Source: Arthrobacter sp. zg-Y1110
GTDB taxonomy: Bacteria > Actinomycetota > Actinomycetes > Actinomycetales > Micrococcaceae
Direction of reading: 5' to 3'
DNA: 64,000 bases
Assembly (NCBI RefSeq): GCF_025244865.1
Contig: NZ_CP104272.1
Coordinates: 310,001 to 374,000 of the forward strand
Below, piece after piece: positions 2 through 13,341 of the stretch (positions are counted from its first letter, which is position 1; the number at the start of each line of letters is the position of its first letter). Under the pieces are notes generated by a model. It searched no databases, had not been told where the DNA came from, and saw nothing but the letters and a program-made list of their open reading frames with translations. Position numbers and translations under genes: made by a program.

Positions 2-2734
2 CGGCGGGTTGAGCTCGGCGAGATTGACGATGCCCTAAGCCGGCTGCCGGGCGTGGCCGTAGCTTCAGCCGCCGTCCATTCCACCCAGTCCGGAAACCAG
101 GTGCTGGCCGGATATCTGGTCCCGGCGGCCGGCGCCACCCTGGACCTTGGCGCCGCACGGGCCCAGCTGGCCCAGAACCTGCCGGCATCCATCGTCCCGT
201 CGCTGGGGATCGTCGATGAGCTGCCGATGAAGGCCTCGGGGAAAGTTGACCGCAAGGCCCTGCCCTGGCCCCTGCCTGTTATGGAAACCCCAACCGACGT
301 CCGGGTGGAGCTCAACGCCGATCTGCGTTGGCTGGGCCAGCGGTGGACCGATCTGCTGGGACCGCTGCCGCTGACCGAGGAAAGCGATTTCTTTGCCCTG
401 GGCGGAGCCAGCCTGGCTGCCGCCCAATTGGTCTCTGCGCTGCGGGAACGTTACCCCAAGGTCTCGGTCGCCGATATCTACGAGCATCCGACGCTGATCA
501 CGATGTCCGAGCACTTGGCGTCACTGCGCGATTCAACCCTGGACGTCCGCGAAACCCCCGAATCGCCCTGGTGGCTGGGGCTGGTCCAGGCGCCGCTGAT
601 CGTGGCGCTCTACGGGATCACGGGCCTGCGGTACGTCACCGGCATCGCCGTCGTGTGCATGGTGATGTTCCATGTAGTGGGCAGCCCCTGGACTCCGGAT
701 CCACCGGTGGTTCCCACCCTTGCGGCCTGGCTGGCCTTGTACAGCCTGCCGGCACGGATGATCGCCGCGGTGGTCTCGTCCAGGTTGCTGCTCCTGGGAA
801 TCGGTCCCGGCATTTATCGGCGCGGCGGCAGCACCCACCTGAGGCTGTGGGCTGCTGAGCGGATAGTGACGTACTGCAAGCTCGAGCCCATCATGGGATC
901 CCCGCTGGGCACCTGGTATGCGCGGCAGTTGGGCTGCAACATCGGTGAAGGCGTGCACCTTGACGCCATGCCGCCCGTTACCGGTTTTGCGTCGATAGGT
1001 GACGGGTCCTCCATCGAATACGAAGTAGACCTGGCAGGCCACTGGGTTGAAGGCGGGCAGCTCCACATCGGCAGGATCCAGATCGGTGAAGACGTACGGA
1101 TCGGTGCACGGTCCACGCTGATGGGCGGGGCGAAGGTAGGCCGCGGAGCGGAAACGGAACCGGGCACCCTGGTCTCCGGCGAAATCCCCGCCTTTGAGCT
1201 TTGGGCGGGATCCCAGATGCGGAAGACCGGTAGTGCCGGGGCGGGATGGCCAGAGGAAGCAGCGCCTGCCGCTGAATCCCGAAGAGTACGGTTGCTCTAC
1301 CCGGCATCCCTGGGCGGCATCGCCTTGTTGAATCTCCTTTCCATAGCGCCCGGATCCGCCCTGATGCTGTGGTTGCTGAACGGTGTTTCCTCTTTCACCG
1401 ACGCGTTGTGGATCCTGGCCGTCTGGGCACCTGTCTTCGTGGTGATTTCCATGCTGATGTTCCTCGTGCTCACCGCCGCCGTGGTCCGCGGTACAGCTCA
1501 CCTGATGCCGCCGGGCATGCACCCGGCGGACGGTATAACGGGCTGGGCGTCCTGGTTGAGCAACCTGATGCTGAGCCGGTCGCTGATTACGATGTATCCG
1601 ATCTACGCCAGCGTGCTCACGCCGGTGTGGATGCGGATCCTGGGTGCGAAGGTCGGCCGGCACGTGGAAATCTCCACTATGGAAACCGTGCCGCACCTGA
1701 CGCGGCTGGAGGACCGGACCTTCCTGGCGGACCATTCCATGATGTCGGCGCGGCGGGTGCGCCAGGGATGGCTGCACCTCGGTCCCGCGAGTGTCGCGGA
1801 ACAGTCCTTCGTCGGGAACTCGGCGATCGTGGGGCCGGACACACACGTTCCGGGGAACTCCCTGATCGCGGTACTTTCTTCGGCTCCCAGGAATATGCCG
1901 GCGGGCACTTCCTGGTTCGGGCGTCCGGCGGTGGAGCTTCCGAGGCCGGTGCAGGTGGGGGACACCGCACGGACCTACGATCCTCCCCGACGCCTGCTGG
2001 TTGCCCGAAGCGCGGTTGAAGCCTGCAGGATCCTGCCTGCGGTGATCACGGCCTGGCTGGCCCTGCTGACAGTGTGGGCGCTGGCCGGACTGTATGACGC
2101 CTTCGGGTTCCTCACGGCCGTCCTGTGGTCCGGTCCGGTCCTCCTGCTGAGCGGGATCGCCGCAGCGCTCATCGCCGTAATGGCGAAGTGGCTGCTGGTG
2201 GGCCGTTTCGAAACTTCGGAGCACCCGCTGTGGAGTTCGTTTGTCTGGCGGAACGAGCTGGCGGACGTGTTTTCCGAAGCCCTGGCCGTTCCCGGATTGG
2301 TGCGGATGAGTCTGGGCACCCCGATGCTCAACGCCTGGCTGCGCTGGATGGGTGCGCGGATCGGCCGCAGTGTTTGGTGCGAAACCTGGTGGCTGCCGGA
2401 ATTCGACCTGATACAGGTGGGCGACGGAGCGAGCATCAACCGCGGCACGGTACTGCAGACCCATCTTTTCCATGACCGGATCATGCGCCTGGACGAAGTA
2501 ACGCTGGGCGACGGTTCCACGCTGGGACCCAACAGCATCGTGCTGCCGGGCAGCGCCATCGAAGTGGGCGGCACCGTTGGTGGCTGCTCGTTGGTGATGC
2601 GCGGGGAAAGCGTCCCCACGAACAGCGCCTGGTGCGGGAACCCGTTGGCACATTGGGGCCAGAGCCGCCCCACGGAACGCCGTGCCCGTCACCGTAAATC
2701 GATCGAGTACAAAACTGTAGGAGCAGGATTATGA
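2..2734 (+). CDS. Pls-type single-module NRPS (poly-lysine-synthetase-like), 5'-truncated by window edge
   Basis: The reading frame is open from base 2, so the N-terminal part of the adenylation domain lies outside the window. What is seen: the end of an A domain (RRVELGEID, then LPMKASGKVDRKAL, the A10 motif), followed by a carrier domain with the phosphopantetheine serine in LGGASL (near base 412). The rest is a membrane region with three left-handed beta-helix/hexapeptide blocks (about 930-1215, 1640-1945 and 2350-2660) separated by hydrophobic helices (near 575-800, 1290-1500 and 2030-2200). This A-T-TM-C1-TM-C2-TM-C3 layout is that of epsilon-poly-L-lysine synthetase and the related NRPS terminal domain family. 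The substrate cannot be read because the A-domain specificity pocket is missing. The last bases overlap dapA by ATGA, which implies coupled translation. A lysine or other diamino acid substrate is an inference from dapA. Confidence 0.85.
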   Translation, partial: RRVELGEIDDALSRLPGVAVASAAVHSTQSGNQVLAGYLVPAAGATLDLGAARAQLAQNLPASIVPSLGIVDELPMKASGKVDRKALPWPLPVMETPTDVRVELNADLRWLGQRWTDLLGPLPLTEESDFFALGGASLAAAQLVSALRERYPKVSVADIYEHPTLITMSEHLASLRDSTLDVRETPESPWWLGLVQAPLIVALYGITGLRYVTGIAVVCMVMFHVVGSPWTPDPPVVPTLAAWLALYSLPARMIAAVVSSRLLLLGIGPGIYRRGGSTHLRLWAAERIVTYCKLEPIMGSPLGTWYARQLGCNIGEGVHLDAMPPVTGFASIGDGSSIEYEVDLAGHWVEGGQLHIGRIQIGEDVRIGARSTLMGGAKVGRGAETEPGTLVSGEIPAFELWAGSQMRKTGSAGAGWPEEAAPAAESRRVRLLYPASLGGIALLNLLSIAPGSALMLWLLNGVSSFTDALWILAVWAPVFVVISMLMFLVLTAAVVRGTAHLMPPGMHPADGITGWASWLSNLMLSRSLITMYPIYASVLTPVWMRILGAKVGRHVEISTMETVPHLTRLEDRTFLADHSMMSARRVRQGWLHLGPASVAEQSFVGNSAIVGPDTHVPGNSLIAVLSSAPRNMPAGTSWFGRPAVELPRPVQVGDTARTYDPPRRLLVARSAVEACRILPAVITAWLALLTVWALAGLYDAFGFLTAVLWSGPVLLLSGIAAALIAVMAKWLLVGRFETSEHPLWSSFVWRNELADVFSEALAVPGLVRMSLGTPMLNAWLRWMGARIGRSVWCETWWLPEFDLIQVGDGASINRGTVLQTHLFHDRIMRLDEVTLGDGSTLGPNSIVLPGSAIEVGGTVGGCSLVMRGESVPTNSAWCGNPLAHWGQSRPTERRARHRKSIEYKTVGAGL

Positions 2735-3699
2735 GTACATCTACGGACAACACAGGGACAACCGTCTCCCGACGGTTCGGCACCGTGCTTACCGCAATGG
2801 TCACGCCCATGGACGAGCGCGGCCAACTGGACCAGACCGGCGCCGAGGAGCTGGCCCGATGGCTGCTGCGGACCGGCTGGAATGACGGCGTGGTGGTCAA
2901 CGGCACCACCGGGGAGTCCTTCGCTACCTCGGACTGGGAAAAAGCGTCAATGATCCACTCGGCCAAGCGGGTCACCGCGGGCACCGAGCGGAGGGTTATC
3001 GCCGGAGTGGGCTCCACCGACACACGGCACAGCATCGAGCTGGCCCGGGCTGCGGCGGAACAGAAGGCGGACGGGCTGCTGGTGGTTGCCCCCTACTATT
3101 CACGCCCCACGCAAAAAGGCCTGCTGCGCCACTTCGAAGCCATTGCCGACAGCACCGACCTGCCGGTGATGCTTTACGACATCCCCGCCCGCACCGGCGT
3201 CGCAATTGCCCCCGAAACCTTGGTGGCGGCCGGCCGCCACCCGAACATCGTTGCGGTGAAGGACGCCAAGGGGGATCTCGTATCCTCCTCCTGGGTCATG
3301 AAGCACAGCGAGCTGGTCTATTACTCGGGTGATGACGCACTGAACCTGCCCCTGATGTCCGTTGGCGCTGTCGGTGTCGTCTCGGTGGTCGGCCATGTCG
3401 CCGCTGACCGGCTGCGTGCCCTGACGGTCGCGTACCGGCAGGGCCGGGTGGACGACGCGCTGCGGATTCACCGTGACCTGCTGCCGATCTACACCGGTAT
3501 GTTCCGGTGCCCCGGCGCGGCATCGGCCAAGGCGGCGCTTCGGAAACTGGGGCTGCCCGCCGGCCCCGTCAGGGGACCGCTGACCGACCTGAGCGAAGAG
3601 GAGACTGAACTGCTTGTGGCTGACCTCGCCGCCGCGGGATTGCCGACTACGCTTGCGTCCGGCCCCACACTCCCCGAAACTCTGGCACGGGCGCATTGA
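2731..3699 (+). CDS. dapA: 4-hydroxy-tetrahydrodipicolinate synthase
   Basis: Cytosolic enzyme condensing aspartate semialdehyde with pyruvate, the committed step to diaminopimelate and lysine. The 322-residue protein has the family hallmarks: GTTGES (residues 58-63), the tyrosine in YDIPARTG (149-156) and the Schiff-base lysine in VAVKDAKGD (about Lys177). Length and order fit DapA rather than N-acetylneuraminate lyase or a KDG aldolase, although the N-acetylneuraminate lyase superfamily is broad. It starts inside the stop codon of the Pls-like gene (ATGA overlap), so it is almost certainly co-translated with it. Such a position suggests a dedicated copy supplying precursor for the polymer rather than the housekeeping dapA; whether a second dapA exists elsewhere cannot be seen here. 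Confidence 0.93.
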   Translation: MSTSTDNTGTTVSRRFGTVLTAMVTPMDERGQLDQTGAEELARWLLRTGWNDGVVVNGTTGESFATSDWEKASMIHSAKRVTAGTERRVIAGVGSTDTRHSIELARAAAEQKADGLLVVAPYYSRPTQKGLLRHFEAIADSTDLPVMLYDIPARTGVAIAPETLVAAGRHPNIVAVKDAKGDLVSSSWVMKHSELVYYSGDDALNLPLMSVGAVGVVSVVGHVAADRLRALTVAYRQGRVDDALRIHRDLLPIYTGMFRCPGAASAKAALRKLGLPAGPVRGPLTDLSEEETELLVADLAAAGLPTTLASGPTLPETLARAH

Positions 3700-3713
3700 G
3701 CAAAGGGGGAAGC

Positions 3714-5078
3714 ATGAGCGGGTCGGCTCAAGCAGGGGTGGGCAAACGGCGAGTCACCGGTGTCGATGCTGCCCGGGGCGCGGCGTTGATTGCCATGATG
3801 GCGATCCACATCCTGCCCGCCTGGAACGAGGAGTTCGCACCCACGCTCACCTGGCTTCTGTTCGCCGGCCGAGGAGCCGCCCTTTTTGCATTGCTTGCCG
3901 GGATATCGCTGGCCTTTATGTCAGGCGGCAAGCACCCGCCGCGGGGACGGGAGATGGCTGCCGTCCGATACGGACTTGCGGTGCGCGCTGGCCTCATCAC
4001 CGTGATCGGGCTGTTGCTCGGCTACCTCGCCATCAACGCCCAGGTGATCCTCGTCTATTACGGCGTGATGTTCCTGCTCGCCCTTCCACTGCTCGGGCTG
4101 CGCGTGCGGACCCTGCTGGTTCTTGCTGCAGGTATCGCTGCCGCCGGCCCCGTCCTGATGCACGCCACCAGGGATCTGCTGCCGGATATGAACGGTGTGG
4201 AACCCAGCTTCTCCACGCTCGTCGAAGCCCCCGGCGGTGTCCTTGGCCAGGTCCTTCTCTCCGGCACGTATCCCGCACTGCCGTGGATGGCGTACGTCTG
4301 CGTCGGTTTGGCTATCGGTCGGCTGGACCTGGCCGAGCGGGGGGTGCAGATTCGGCTGCTGGTGGCCGGCATCGGCCTTGCCCTTGCAACAGCAGTCCTT
4401 TCCGCCCTCATCCTCGGCCCCTTCGGCGGGCGGCAACAACTGATCGACGCGACGTCGGTATGGTCTTCGGCCCCCGAGGGCACCGTTGAGGAGATACTGA
4501 TCTGGGGGCCGGACCCGGTGATGCCGACAGATTCGTGGTGGTGGCTTTCCTCCTTGGCCCCCTATTCCAGTACGCCGTTGGTGCTGGCCAACACCATCGG
4601 CATCTCGGCGGCGTTCCTGGCGGGGCTGCTGCTGCTGGGGCGGGCCAGCGGGCGGCTCCTGCAGCCCTTGGCTCTGTTGGGAAAGATGACCCTGACCCTG
4701 TACTCCCTGCACCTGATACTCCTGGCCACCGGGCTGCTCGCGGACCAGCCAGTGCCGGCAATGATTCTCCAGTTGGTCATCCTCTCGGCCTTCGCCGCCA
4801 TCTGGCTGCGGTACGCCGCCCAGGGGCCGCTGGAAAAGGGTGTTGCCGAAGCCTCGAAGTGGGCGCGGAACAAATACCTGGAGCGCACCGGAGGTCAGCG
4901 GAAGAGCCTGACGTCGCCGACAAGGCCGGATCCAGCGGCTGCGGGAACCCAGGCTGAGCCGCTTGCACCGTCGTCGTCGGCACCGCGCGCGGTGGCCTAC
5001 CCACCCGCCCCGCCCTATCCGCCGGCTCCGCCGGAGCCGGAAGGCCGGGCCCGTCACCGGGCCCGTCAGCGCAGTTGA
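3714..5078 (+). CDS. Multi-pass membrane acyltransferase-like protein (DUF1624/DUF418)
   Basis: Integral membrane protein of about 454 residues with roughly ten hydrophobic segments. The N terminus (RVTGVDAARGAALIAMMAIH) matches the heparan-alpha-glucosaminide N-acetyltransferase-like DUF1624 family, and the C-terminal membrane half (LLGKMTLTLYSLHLILLA) matches DUF418/YeiB proteins. Members are thought to move acyl groups across the membrane onto extracytoplasmic acceptors; the acceptor here is unknown. The tail after about residue 395 is Pro/Ala rich and probably disordered. The frame is open from a TTG at 3696, but ATG 3714 is preceded by AAGGGGGA at good spacing, so it is preferred. It begins 14 bases after dapA, and its stop overlaps the next start by one base (TGATG). 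Confidence 0.85.
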   Translation: MSGSAQAGVGKRRVTGVDAARGAALIAMMAIHILPAWNEEFAPTLTWLLFAGRGAALFALLAGISLAFMSGGKHPPRGREMAAVRYGLAVRAGLITVIGLLLGYLAINAQVILVYYGVMFLLALPLLGLRVRTLLVLAAGIAAAGPVLMHATRDLLPDMNGVEPSFSTLVEAPGGVLGQVLLSGTYPALPWMAYVCVGLAIGRLDLAERGVQIRLLVAGIGLALATAVLSALILGPFGGRQQLIDATSVWSSAPEGTVEEILIWGPDPVMPTDSWWWLSSLAPYSSTPLVLANTIGISAAFLAGLLLLGRASGRLLQPLALLGKMTLTLYSLHLILLATGLLADQPVPAMILQLVILSAFAAIWLRYAAQGPLEKGVAEASKWARNKYLERTGGQRKSLTSPTRPDPAAAGTQAEPLAPSSSAPRAVAYPPAPPYPPAPPEPEGRARHRARQRS

Positions 5079-6208
5079 TGCTGTTGAGTCGTGCACGCCG
5101 TCTCGGGCTTGCGGCAGCTTCGGTGCTGCTTGCTGCCCTTTTGCTGCATCCTCTCCCGGCCGCCGGCGCGGAGCAGGAGCACGACCCGTGTGCGAGGCTC
5201 AACGCGGGCGAAGTCCGCTACTCCGTCCATAAAGCCAAGCGCGTCACTTTCGCGACGGCTGAAAAGTACGGAGCTGCGGAAACCCGCCTCACCGGCTGTG
5301 TTTTCGAGGACGGGGGCTATGTGCAGGAATGGCAGTCCTGGGGCTTCAGCGGCCGCAACGGCTTTGCACCCCCGGGCAGCATGTGGGAAAACACCTTGTA
5401 TTCACCGACCGGGTCCTTCAGCTTCACCGAGGCGCTCGGACGCAGCAACCCGGGCACTGAACTGGAATATCACGAGCTGAATCCCTCCTCCCGGTGGGGC
5501 GGGCAGCACGGGGAGACCTATAACCAGTACTTCGAAGGGGAAGGCGCAGGAGCAGACGAGAATCTTTGGCGGTACATGGAGCAGGGCCTCTATGAGCAGG
5601 CAGCAGTGATCAATTGGAACCGCCCGCCGGATATGCCGACCCGGCAGGGTGCCTCCTTCGCGATTTTCTTCCATGCCGGGTACGCACCAACGTGGGGATG
5701 CATTTCCACGGACCTGGCCACGGTCACACGCTTGCTGCGCAGGGCCGTCCCGGGCGACCGCATCGTTATGGGGACCGTGGAAGACGTTTTCACGGCGTCC
5801 ACTGCCGCCTCCGAAGCTGCCGCCGCTGCGGCCCGTGCAGAAGAGAAGGCAGCGGCAGTCGAGCACAGGCTGGAGACGCTGACCGGCACGCTGACGACCC
5901 TCGGCGTACTGGCGGCGCTGGGGCTGCTGATCCGGCTGGCGCTCAAAAGGGCCGGGCGTCGGCGGAAGCCGCCGGGCTCTCCGCCCAGCGCCGGCACATT
6001 CGCCAAGACGGCGGCGTCGGACCGCCAGAGTGCGGCAAGACCACGGACCCATACGGGGTGGTCCCCGCCGGCGGAAGCCCCTCCGGCAGGCGCGTCCCGG
6101 CAGCTGGAGCGGACACGGGACCGGCCGCTCGACCGGCCGGTGGACAGGCCGGTGGACAGTGAGCGCGAAGGGAAACCGCGGGAGGACGTTTCTTCACACA
6201 ATCCCTGA
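5078..6208 (+). CDS. Secreted, membrane-anchored L,D-transpeptidase-like (YkuD) protein
   Basis: The 376-residue protein has an N-terminal signal sequence (Arg-rich start, LAAASVLLAALLL, cleavage near AAGA). Next comes an extracytoplasmic domain with the YkuD-type active-site pattern FFHAGYAPTWGCIST, giving a candidate catalytic His at about 199 and Cys at about 208. An Ala/Glu-rich helix (about 240-268), one transmembrane helix (about 272-290) and a charged Pro-rich C-terminal tail follow. L,D-transpeptidases form 3-3 crosslinks or attach amines to peptidoglycan stem peptides. The catalytic motif is somewhat divergent (WGC rather than HGC), so activity is inferred. It starts on the A of the preceding TGA stop and belongs to the same operon as the Pls-like enzyme and dapA, suggesting a role in placing or tolerating the polymer at the wall. 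Confidence 0.8.
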   Translation: MLLSRARRLGLAAASVLLAALLLHPLPAAGAEQEHDPCARLNAGEVRYSVHKAKRVTFATAEKYGAAETRLTGCVFEDGGYVQEWQSWGFSGRNGFAPPGSMWENTLYSPTGSFSFTEALGRSNPGTELEYHELNPSSRWGGQHGETYNQYFEGEGAGADENLWRYMEQGLYEQAAVINWNRPPDMPTRQGASFAIFFHAGYAPTWGCISTDLATVTRLLRRAVPGDRIVMGTVEDVFTASTAASEAAAAAARAEEKAAAVEHRLETLTGTLTTLGVLAALGLLIRLALKRAGRRRKPPGSPPSAGTFAKTAASDRQSAARPRTHTGWSPPAEAPPAGASRQLERTRDRPLDRPVDRPVDSEREGKPREDVSSHNP

Positions 6209-6238: not shown

Positions 6239-6430
6239 GTGAACGAAACACCTGCCGGCGACGGGACGGCCTGGACGGACCCCGACGCAGCCGACGAGGG
6301 CAGGTTGCTGTACGAGGAACGGGCGGCCCTGCTCCCCGGGTTGTGGATGCCCCCGGCACCCGATTGGGAGGACCTGCCCGAAGCGGACCGGCAGCGGTGG
6401 CGCCAATACGCCCGGGACGCTGAAAACTAA
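6239..6430 (+). CDS. Small hypothetical protein (63 aa)
   Basis: Short acidic open frame starting with GTG, 30 bases after the L,D-transpeptidase gene. The product is Asp/Glu/Trp rich (for example LWMPPAPDWEDLPEADRQRW) and looks soluble. There is no clear Shine-Dalgarno sequence. A small stem (CGCTTA at 6223-6228 with TAAGCG at 6234-6239) overlaps the proposed start. I do not recognise the family. It may be the last gene of the upstream operon or a spurious frame. Confidence 0.5.
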   Translation: MNETPAGDGTAWTDPDAADEGRLLYEERAALLPGLWMPPAPDWEDLPEADRQRWRQYARDAEN

Positions 6431-6451: not shown

Positions 6452-7840
6452 GTGGCGAAAACGCCGCACCGTGTCAGGATGTCCGCCATGCGGCAGACCG
6501 GATCCCACCATCAACACCCGCACCACGCGCCCGACCCCTACACTCCCGCGTCAGGCTCCACGGACCTGAGCATCAGCGAGTATGACCTGACACTGGATTA
6601 CGACGTCGGCCTCAACCGGCTGAAGGGGCAGGCGCGCCTCGCCGGCTCGGCCCTGGTCGACATTGAACAGCTCACCCTGGACCTGGACCGGCCGATGCGG
6701 GTGGAAGAAGTCCTGCTTTGGTGCGCCGGAACTCCGGTGGACGTCCGTTCCTTCCGCCAGCGACGCGGCAAACTGGCGATAACGCCCAGTCGGGAGCTGA
6801 AGGCCGGTGACAGCTTTCGGCTGGGCATCCGGTACCGGGGCAAACCGCGTGCGGGCAACGGCCTGTGGGGGGACATCGGCTGGGAGGAATTGACCGACGG
6901 CGCCCTCGTTGCCGGACAGCCGACCGGGGCTCCGTCCTGGTTTCCCTGCAACGACCTGCCTGCGGACAAAGCACGGTATCGGATCAGCGTGACGGTGGAG
7001 TCCGGCTACCGGGTGACGTGCAACGGAGAGCTGGTCTCCCACGAAGACCGCCGCGGCCGGGAGACCTGGGTCTTCGAACAACCCGAACCCATGTCCAGCT
7101 ACTTGGCGACGGTCCAGATTGGGCGGTACGAGTGCCTGGACCTGCCCGGCGCGGTACCGCAGTCCGTCGTCGTGCCCCCGTCCCTGACCGACCGCGCGAG
7201 TGCCGCGCTGTCCCGGCAGGATTCCATGATGACCCTGTTTACCTCCCGGTTCGGGCCCTACCCCTTCGGCCGGTACACGGTGGTGGTGACCGACGACGAG
7301 TTGGAGATCCCTTTGGAGGCGCAGTCGGTGTCGGTCTTCGGATGCAACCACCTGGGTTCGGGTTCGGCGTCTTTGGTGGCCCACGAACTTGCGCATCAGT
7401 GGTTCGGCAATTCGGTCACGGCGGGCAGTTGGCGGGATATCTGGCTGCACGAGGGTTTCGCAACCTACGCGGAGTGGCTGTGGGCGGAGGCGGCCGACGG
7501 CGCCCGCAGCGACCAGCGGGCCGCGGCGGACCTGGAGTGGCTGCAGCACCAGCGGCAGGACCTGCAGCTGGCAGATCCCGGGCCGGCAGCCATGTTCGAT
7601 GAACGGGTTTACCGGCGCGGAGCGTTGACGCTGCACGTCCTGCGGCGCAGCGCCGGTGACGGGATCTTCTTCGCGCTGCTGCAGGAGTGGACGCAGAAGT
7701 ACCGGCACGCTTGTGCCGGTACTTCTGACTTTTTGGACCTTGCCGACAAGGCATATGCCGCCGCCGGTGTCTCGGCCAACGGACTGCTGGGGCCGTGGCT
7801 GTTCGACCCCACGGTCCCGGCAGCCGTCTTCAGGGCCTAG
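6452..7840 (+). CDS. M1 family zinc metallopeptidase (aminopeptidase N-like, short form)
   Basis: A protein of about 462 residues with the zinc motif HELAH (about 311-315) and the third zinc ligand Glu in LHEGFATYAEWLW (about 334), the gluzincin M1 signature. It is the short form with beta-domain plus catalytic domain, lacking the long C-terminal helical domain of E. coli PepN. The substrate-binding GxMEN motif is replaced by IPLEAQ, as in other actinobacterial short members. No signal peptide is seen, so it is probably cytosolic. The start is uncertain: GTG 6452 gives the longest frame; ATG 6479 or 6488 would remove a His-rich leader. Its TAG stop overlaps the stop codon of the convergent FrnE-like gene. 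Confidence 0.9.
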   Translation: MAKTPHRVRMSAMRQTGSHHQHPHHAPDPYTPASGSTDLSISEYDLTLDYDVGLNRLKGQARLAGSALVDIEQLTLDLDRPMRVEEVLLWCAGTPVDVRSFRQRRGKLAITPSRELKAGDSFRLGIRYRGKPRAGNGLWGDIGWEELTDGALVAGQPTGAPSWFPCNDLPADKARYRISVTVESGYRVTCNGELVSHEDRRGRETWVFEQPEPMSSYLATVQIGRYECLDLPGAVPQSVVVPPSLTDRASAALSRQDSMMTLFTSRFGPYPFGRYTVVVTDDELEIPLEAQSVSVFGCNHLGSGSASLVAHELAHQWFGNSVTAGSWRDIWLHEGFATYAEWLWAEAADGARSDQRAAADLEWLQHQRQDLQLADPGPAAMFDERVYRRGALTLHVLRRSAGDGIFFALLQEWTQKYRHACAGTSDFLDLADKAYAAAGVSANGLLGPWLFDPTVPAAVFRA

Positions 7841-11841: not shown

Positions 11842-13341
11842 GTGACGCCTACTACATGGAACAGACCCGCTCCAGACTCTCCGAAGGGCGGATTGGGGCC
11901 CGACGCCGAGCGCACGCTGGACGTGATTAGCCTCGGCCGCCGCGTGCGGCACCTGCGCAAGGCCAAGGGCATGACGCTCGATGACCTGGGTGCCGCCGTC
12001 GGAACCGTGGCGTCCCAGCTGTCCCTGATCGAGAACGGCAAGCGGGAGCCGAAGCTCGGCATGATGCAGGCGCTGGCCGCTGCGCTGGATGTCAGCATCG
12101 ATTCCCTGCTGGGCTCGGAGCCGCCCAGCCGGCGTGCCGCGCTCGAAATCGAACTCGAGCGGGCGCAGCGCGGCCCGCTCTATGCTTCCCTGGGCCTGCC
12201 GAAGGTGCGGATCGGTTCGCGGCTGCCCATCGACGTCCTGGAATCCCTGGTGGGGCTGCAGGCCGAGCTCGAGCGCCGGCTCAACGAGCAGGTAGCCACC
12301 CCCGAGGAAGCGCGCCGGGCCAACGGTGAACTGCGGGCCATGATGCGCGAGCGCAACAACTACTTCCCCGAATACGAGGCCGAGGCGCAGAAGGTGCTGG
12401 ATTCGGTGGGGCACACGTCCGGTCCGCTGTCCCAGCATGTGATCGCCGATATTGCGGCTCATCTGGGTTTCAGCCTGCACCACGTCAACGACCTGCCGCA
12501 CTCCACGCGCTCCGTCACCGACCTGAAGAACCGGCGCATCTACCTGACCCAGTCCCAGCGATCGGACCACGATCCGCGGTCGGTGCTGCTGCAGGCGCTG
12601 GGGCACTACGTGCTTCAGCACCAGACGCCCAGCAGCTACGGGGAATTCCTGGGCCAGCGGGTGGCCACGAACTACTTCGCCGCCGCGTTGCTGCTGCCGG
12701 AGAAAGCCACGGTGGAGTTCCTGCAGCGGGCCAAGGCTGCCAAGGAGATTGCCGTGGAGGACATCCGTGATGCCTTCGCGGTGTCCTATGAAACTGCTGC
12801 GCACCGGTTCACCAATCTCGCCACCGAGCATTTGGGGATTCCCACCCATTTCCAGAAGGTGCACGAGAGCGGCATTGTCTACAAGGCATATGAGAACGAC
12901 GGCGTGACGTTCCCTGCGGACCACACGGGCGCCATTGAGGGCCAGCCGATCTGCCGGTACTGGACCTCCCGGGAGGTCTTTTCCGTGCCGGACCAGTTCA
13001 GTGCGTTCAACCAGTACACCGACACTCCGGCCGGCACCTACTGGTGCACGGCACGTACGGAACGGGGTTCGGCCGGGAAGTTTTCGCTCAGCATCGGTGT
13101 GCCGTACCAGCACGTGAAGTGGTTCCGGGGCCGGGACACCACCGAACGTTCCAAATCCCGCTGTCCCGATCCGGACTGCTGCCGCACCCCGCCGGGGGAG
13201 CTGGCGTCCGAGTGGTCCGGCTTTGCCTGGCCCAGCGCACGGGCACATTCGCACCTGTTGGCTGCCCTGCCGCCCGGCGCGTTCCCCGGCGTGGACGAGA
13301 CCGAGGTGTATTCCTTCCTGCAGGCGCATTCGGAGGGGTAG
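11842..13341 (+). CDS. ramB: RamB-type XRE regulator of acetate/glyoxylate metabolism
   Basis: The 499-residue protein has an N-terminal HTH-XRE domain (about residues 30-92, LRKAKGMTLDDLGAAVGT...LSLIENGKREPKL). A central IrrE/DUF955-like domain follows (about 195-300) with a degenerate metallopeptidase motif (ALGHYVLQHQ). The C-terminal domain is the DUF2083/short-chain-fatty-acyl-regulator type and has a Cys cluster (CPDPDCCRTP). This architecture is that of RamB, the repressor of aceA/aceB in Corynebacterium and mycobacteria. The divergent position next to aceA strongly supports the same role. The start is a GTG at 11842 without a strong Shine-Dalgarno sequence; an internal start close to the HTH is possible. 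Confidence 0.9.
   Translation: MTPTTWNRPAPDSPKGGLGPDAERTLDVISLGRRVRHLRKAKGMTLDDLGAAVGTVASQLSLIENGKREPKLGMMQALAAALDVSIDSLLGSEPPSRRAALEIELERAQRGPLYASLGLPKVRIGSRLPIDVLESLVGLQAELERRLNEQVATPEEARRANGELRAMMRERNNYFPEYEAEAQKVLDSVGHTSGPLSQHVIADIAAHLGFSLHHVNDLPHSTRSVTDLKNRRIYLTQSQRSDHDPRSVLLQALGHYVLQHQTPSSYGEFLGQRVATNYFAAALLLPEKATVEFLQRAKAAKEIAVEDIRDAFAVSYETAAHRFTNLATEHLGIPTHFQKVHESGIVYKAYENDGVTFPADHTGAIEGQPICRYWTSREVFSVPDQFSAFNQYTDTPAGTYWCTARTERGSAGKFSLSIGVPYQHVKWFRGRDTTERSKSRCPDPDCCRTPPGELASEWSGFAWPSARAHSHLLAALPPGAFPGVDETEVYSFLQAHSEG

Follow-up and report, generated by a model that had tools for sequence, protein, structure and literature searches.

How bacterial producers survive cationic homopolymers, and why bacteria make them at all, is an open question, and the regulation and natural role of epsilon-poly-L-lysine (epsilon-PL) are less well understood according to the available part of PMC8117764. 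A gene block of Arthrobacter sp. zg-Y1110 that raises this question was analysed. The stretch of DNA studied (the window) has 64,000 nucleotides and covers positions 310001-374000 of contig NZ_CP104272.1; the surrounding stretch is labelled L002, in which window position 1 is position 12001. The block contains a Pls-type synthetase gene (pls) with dapA, genes for two HGSNAT/DUF418 membrane proteins and a gene for a YkuD-fold protein (ykuD), and it spans 11.5 kb from a 4'-phosphopantetheinyl transferase (PPTase) gene through an M1-family aminopeptidase gene. With about even confidence it is read as a variant epsilon-PL locus carrying a wall-side module for tolerance or egress of the polymer, the chemistry of which is left open. 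That a conserved wall enzyme and a protein of transmembrane acyltransferase type adjoin the synthetase directs attention to the envelope of the producer itself.

Gene content of the block

The features of the block are as follows; coordinates refer to the window unless L002 is given.

L002:8329-9111, left of pls: PPTase (ACPS 46.7 bits, cut-off 25)
L002:9108-10352, strand opposite to the PPTase gene: second HGSNAT/DUF418 protein (HGSNAT_cat 52.6 bits)
L002:10625-14734: complete pls gene, 1369 amino acids (aa) from the first start codon, recovered with the sequence upstream of the window
2..2734, plus strand: C-terminal part of pls (A-domain end, T domain, TIGR02353 membrane terminus), by profile matches
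2731..3699, plus strand: dapA (4-hydroxy-tetrahydrodipicolinate synthase), start inside the pls stop
3714..5078, plus strand: HGSNAT/DUF418 acyltransferase-type membrane protein, by Pfam matches
5078..6208, plus strand: YkuD-fold protein of 376 aa, by predicted fold and relatives
6239..6430, plus strand: small open reading frame of 63 aa, no Pfam family at E<=0.01
6452..7840, plus strand: M1-family aminopeptidase, by Pfam family

The part of pls inside the window (2-2734) encodes a Pls/PosA synthetase without its N-terminal third (TIGR02353, 576.8 bits), and the true start of the gene, judged by eye, is probably a Met slightly downstream of the first start codon. A preliminary description of the window had named a four-gene set in which a synthetase of Pls architecture overlaps dapA, which is followed after 14 bases by the membrane acyltransferase gene and then by ykuD. 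The ATGA at 2731-2734, shared by the pls stop and the dapA start, confirmed the overlap. The coordinates likewise gave 14 bases between the dapA end (3699) and the ATG at 3714, and one base in common (TGATG) between the membrane-protein TGA (5076-5078) and the ykuD ATG. That description did not include the M1 peptidase, the PPTase and the second DUF418 protein, all three of which are present or absent together with the block. The PPTase and second DUF418 genes abut end to end on the left of pls.

Predicted polymer and its supply

The synthetase was assigned by profile scores of 575-577 bits for TIGR02353 (Pls/PosA terminus; cut-off 423.1), 326 bits for the A domain (TIGR01733; cut-off 317) and 39.3 bits for the PP-binding domain (cut-off 20.8). 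The A domain recovered from upstream of the window, whose specificity the preliminary description had left to be predicted, is predicted to be lysine-type: its closest solved structure is the epsilon-PL synthase 7wew (615 bits; runner-up 372) and its specificity code is DAESIGTVIK, with the code positions set by GrsA numbering. Lysine is the predicted monomer because the code has Ala at the second place, as in lysine enzymes; the diaminopropionate enzyme has Phe there, according to the accessible part of PMC10522769. The conserved Asp and Glu and the Ala at the chain-length position also match the description of lysine enzymes given there. A tally by hand of 75 aligned synthetases (62 from loci and 13 named proteins) revealed DAESIGT followed by VIK, VVK or, once, IIK in 73 including the window; the remaining two, of a distant 28% type, have DFECLSVVTK. 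A non-lysine polymer was considered and is unlikely, given the lysine-type code in 73/75. The gene block very probably makes epsilon-PL.

The window dapA scored 251 bits with the DapA equivalog TIGR00674 (cut-off 206.15). Four DapA matches were found in the genome, two of them strong, namely the window gene and one at C1:1238110; that an extra dapA stands beside pls supports the precursor supply proposed in the preliminary description. The second strong dapA (L092, G000:C1:1236778-1238931) also adjoins an HGSNAT/DUF418 protein gene, divergently, so that dapA and this family are adjacent twice in one genome.

The M1 aminopeptidase is related to the peptidase adjoining the other (classic) Pls clade, and PldII of Streptomyces albulus belongs to the M1 family; the window enzyme is a candidate epsilon-PL-degrading enzyme. 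Homology supports a putative chain of lysine supply, polymerisation and degradation, in which extra DapA would feed flux into lysine, Pls, activated by the neighbouring PPTase, would polymerise L-lysine, and the aminopeptidase would break down polymer remaining on the producer. A perfect 15-bp inverted repeat with a 4-base loop and a terminator-like score was observed within the M1 coding sequence (7694-7727); it is intact in L073, is 10 bp long in L074 and L076, and none was seen at the equivalent site of L077. The small open reading frame has a tblastn match in 8/12 genus loci and in L088.

The YkuD-fold and membrane proteins

The protein called a secreted YkuD transpeptidase in the preliminary description was supported in its fold and not in its activity. 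The predicted structure shows the catalytic fold of YkuD / L,D-transpeptidases, and a YkuD family match at E<=0.1 was obtained for 15/19 relatives; the assignment follows from these two results and not from the Pfam score, which at 15.4 bits (PF03734) lies below the cut-off of 23.4. A signal-like N terminus was seen by eye, the catalytic domain covers about 40-240, and the C-terminal part is predicted as a long helix with a hydrophobic stretch followed by a Pro/charged tail. H199, G201 and C208 are invariant in 19 relatives. The resulting motif, H199-A-G-X6-C208, has a His-Cys spacing far shorter than that of H(S/G/D)X14-19C, the motif of transpeptidases and Csd6 according to PMC4599014. Since both the Pfam cut-off and the published active-site motif are missed, the identity as a transpeptidase is not established, and a hydrolase role is at least as likely. 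A Trp stands beside the catalytic Cys in most pls-linked copies; two short rows among 20 unlinked copies were omitted from this comparison. LGFP repeats are present in many relatives. Searching the PDB with a sequence profile of the family gave no credible relative. By Foldseek the two best matches to the model are Csd6 and Bd1075.

Csd6, Pgp2, Bd1075, LdtMt2, YkuD and DpaA resemble the window protein in predicted fold and in the conserved His and Cys, whereas the window protein has the shorter His-Cys spacing and the linked copies mostly have the Trp by the Cys.

Both membrane proteins exceed the HGSNAT_cat cut-off of 22 bits, the one at 3714..5078 with 48.7 and the second with 52.6; the former also scored 24.6 bits with DUF418 (cut-off 23.6). 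His32 and His333 are invariant across 30 relatives.

Conservation of the gene set

Among 29 congeners, Pls (>2000 bits) was found in 12 and a YkuD-like gene in exactly those 12, neither being found in the other 17. All 12 loci keep the order pls-dapA-DUF418-ykuD-M1, with the second DUF418 and PPTase genes on the left, and the 11.5-kb PPTase-to-M1 block is present or absent as one unit in the genus genomes compared. Eight of the 17 genomes without pls were inspected at the expected site. HAD, LytR-like (named by eye), FrnE, aceB and aceA genes follow in the same order in 7/8, the LytR-like and FrnE match ends being 41-100 bp apart in four genomes (L174, L175, L176, L180) and separated by 1.7-4.7 kb of other DNA in three (L177, L178, L179); FrnE and aceB were not found at the inspected site of L181. 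Repeated entry or relocation of the block is possible, since in three genus members (L080-L082) it lies on the other side of FrnE.

In the family Micrococcaceae, Pls was detected at E<=1e-200 in 159/295 genomes. Loci scoring over 1700 bits were taken as window-type Pls, which gave 27, the weakest at 1740 bits and the next row below them at 1601, and linkage was read by matching the Pls and YkuD lists by hand, only the best candidates per genome being scored. A YkuD-like gene lies 0.5-2.6 kb from pls in 22/27 of these loci, in six genera (g1, g4, g8, g23, g24, g31), codirectional with pls in 12 and divergent in 10. One further Pls among the lower-scoring matches listed had a YkuD-like gene nearby; it is the second Pls of G219 and lies in one locus with a window-type Pls. 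YkuD-like genes as such occur in 69/295 genomes, and no linked copy was seen in 47 of these. The order pls-dapA-DUF418-ykuD, whose conservation the preliminary description proposed to check, thus stood as a set in the genus (12/12) and as ykuD linkage in the family (22/27); as a fixed order it did not, with ykuD divergent in 10/22 and dapA missing from some YkuD-linked loci.

The neighbours within 8 kb of pls differ between Pls types:

Window type (class B), 26 loci: DUF418 25, dapA 22, PPTase 15, M1 14
Classic type, 18 loci picked by hand and not at random: M1 18, PPTase 12, DUF418 1, dapA 1, ykuD 1
50-57% type, 10 loci: DUF418 10, PPTase 2, dapA 0, M1 0, ykuD 0

The class-B loci were partly fetched for carrying ykuD, so that its presence in 26/26 is no test and the figure of 22/27 is the real one. 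The sole class-B locus lacking DUF418 comes from a stretch that breaks off at pls; dapA and DUF418 are both present in a longer record, apparently of the same contig (L138). From these counts DUF418 is the widest partner, followed by dapA and then ykuD. The epsilon-PL loci of one family divide into kinds with and without the wall module, both being present in one genome at least once. Chance neighbourhood was rejected, because further genomes of the genus and family carry the same set of genes.

On the Pls tree the ykuD-linked rows (27/73) need 3 changes compared with 21.8 after shuffling; 13 rows of unknown neighbourhood were scored as unlinked, 4 of which sit among linked rows. The distances of Pls and YkuD correlate (Spearman 0.60, 24 pairs, 0/5000 permutations as high), a result of little weight because species descent is uncontrolled. 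At the level of the order, a YkuD-like gene was found at E<=1e-20 in 13/396 genomes, and no Pls was present in the 17-18 kb surrounding the four that lie outside the family. A record named Microbacterium (Pls P0142, YkuD-like P0099, contigs of equal size) may represent linkage outside the family.

Proposed function and alternatives

We infer the roles of the YkuD-fold and DUF418 proteins, with their sidedness, target bond, acyl acceptor and part in self-tolerance, from place, fold and conservation. The two HGSNAT/DUF418 proteins and the surface YkuD-fold enzyme would act outside the membrane in export and tolerance of the membrane-active polycation. Near the synthetase, the YkuD-fold enzyme would most likely trim or exchange L,D bonds in the stems of peptidoglycan. 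The HGSNAT-type protein would transfer an acyl group, probably acetyl, through the membrane to an amine, either of the polymer or of the wall.

Several observations weigh against this reading. The five window-type loci without a YkuD-like gene all belong to genus g13, which groups with Nesterenkonia on the Pls tree. Within 8 kb of pls they have matches for dapA (5/5), DUF418 (5/5) and M1 (5/5) and none for ykuD (0/5). A profile search of all five for a divergent substitute gave no YkuD, nor was one read in the DUF418-M1 gap of four, which has a PPTase-like frame in 4/4 and a small frame like that of the window in 2/4 (by eye). The 50-57% Pls loci keep DUF418 but have ykuD in 0/10; because of both absences ykuD would be dispensable for making polymer in these two groups. 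Of the 26 class-B loci, 12 have no M1 within 8 kb, and these 12 all carry ykuD. The threshold of E<=0.001 was reached by a single Foldseek match, a PDB search with the DUF418 profile gave no relative at E<=1, and the genus pattern may amount to one or two gains inherited together.

The most probable alternative, still an unlikely one, gives the YkuD-fold enzyme a general part in wall growth or shape, as an L,D-carboxypeptidase or amidase that is co-expressed with pls and has no role for polymer or tolerance.

It is rather doubtful that the YkuD-fold enzyme links epsilon-PL itself to peptidoglycan, by an acyl-enzyme formed at stem residue 3 and attacked by a polymer amine, giving a wall-bound polycation. 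Such covalent attachment is chemically plausible. Lysine is a known acceptor, since the YkuD enzymes LdtA-C join Braun's lipoprotein to peptidoglycan via its C-terminal lysine (in the part of PMC10653827 seen). The close linkage of the YkuD-like gene to window-type Pls and the Trp beside the catalytic Cys in most linked copies argue for attachment, as does a second, diaminobutyrate-type operon in Arthrobacter sp. VKM Ac-2550 with its own DUF418 gene and a broken ykuD remnant, so that YkuD may accompany polycation synthetases generally. Two findings speak against attachment: the H-A-G-X6-C motif departs from that of PMC4599014, and the best Foldseek matches, Csd6 and Bd1075, are carboxypeptidases; no paper on wall-bound polylysine was found in the literature searched, which lay mostly outside subscription journals. 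In its general form, that polycation synthetases of Micrococcaceae have a dedicated YkuD-fold enzyme fixing a cationic homopolymer covalently to peptidoglycan, with HGSNAT-type acylation tuning the charge, the idea is quite unlikely; if true, a wall-bound isopeptide polycation would be a positive counterpart of teichoic acids. Since many relatives keep the genes together, a fit of the polymer to the producer's own wall, or its fixation there, becomes testable.

It is improbable that the polymer itself is the target of the YkuD-fold enzyme or of the DUF418 protein, through chain release, capping, acylation or cleavage, in place of M1 where this is missing. The 12 class-B loci without M1 (a partly ykuD-chosen sample) favour such a role, and HGSNAT-type proteins transfer acetyl groups onto amines; however, M1 and ykuD occur together in 12/12 genus loci, many YkuD-family relatives have LGFP repeats, and the 50-57% loci have neither gene (0/10 each). 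That ykuD, dapA and DUF418 are carried along without function by common descent of one island agrees with the all-or-none block and the 3 changes on the tree, but is very improbable, as linkage persists to 61-62% Pls identity, over six genera and through the change of layout, ykuD being codirectional in 12 of the 22 loci and divergent in the other 10.

Comparison with known systems

A pls gene beside a peptidase gene and homologues of the epsilon-PL synthetase in Arthrobacter, Micrococcus, Glutamicibacter and others have been described (PMC8117764, in part), and antiSMASH 'NAPAA' clusters have been reported in Micrococcaceae (PMC12025171 and PMC11078813, in the parts available). Pls loci with a peptidase are thus already known, and dapA, DUF418 and a YkuD-fold gene in such a locus appear to be new. 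The preliminary description knew of no system with this set, and none was found: the literature search, full text included, gave no paper on epsilon-PL with YkuD, and titles and abstract starts in the same scope gave no description of DapA, DUF418 and YkuD together in a Pls locus.

The pls-pldII locus of S. albulus and the pls-peptidase locus of Corynebacterium variabile are like the window in Pls architecture, lysine-type A domain and adjacent peptidase, which in the window is M1 and lies downstream of ykuD and the small reading frame; the window differs by the addition of dapA, two HGSNAT/DUF418 proteins and a YkuD-fold wall enzyme. The window Pls is 54-55% identical to those of Streptomyces silvisoli and Kitasatospora cystarginea. 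The classic Micrococcaceae loci (Pls 46-50% identical) have M1 within 8 kb in 18/18 picked, as in the window, but no match for dapA, DUF418 or ykuD except in 1/18, where both Pls types adjoin. Poly-diaminobutyrate loci (pldA/pddA) have a precursor gene beside a Pls-type synthetase, like dapA here; they differ in amino acid and code, and YkuD and DUF418 are unnamed in the text of PMC8117764 seen, its figure aside.

A second polycation system and other observations

Past ykuD, the divergent locus of Arthrobacter sp. VKM Ac-2550 goes on to a diaminobutyrate transaminase gene (TIGR02407 626 bits, cut-off 552) and, further along, to genes for an aspartate kinase and a second Pls-type synthetase (28% identical, code DFECLSVVTK). 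With this synthetase come a DUF418 gene of its own, an M28 peptidase gene and two fragments of ykuD that are out of frame. The genes dat and ask are among those named at diaminobutyrate synthetases in the context-figure legend of PMC8117764, a source seen in part. DUF418 and, once, YkuD therefore accompany a polycation synthetase beyond the lysine type, as seen at one locus with a broken gene. At L083:4541-16376 / L138, lysine-type and diaminobutyrate-type operons lie around one ykuD, with a broken second ykuD after the other DUF418 gene.

A locus of Paeniglutamicibacter antarcticus (L141) contains both family Pls types, separated by one ykuD; M1 follows the classic Pls. A frame resembling an ArsA/GET3-type ATPase by eye, with no known link, lies near a 55% Pls locus (L154:15440-16468). 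Several family genomes have extra TIGR02353 matches over the cut-off in frames of about 1040-1160 aa, shorter than Pls.

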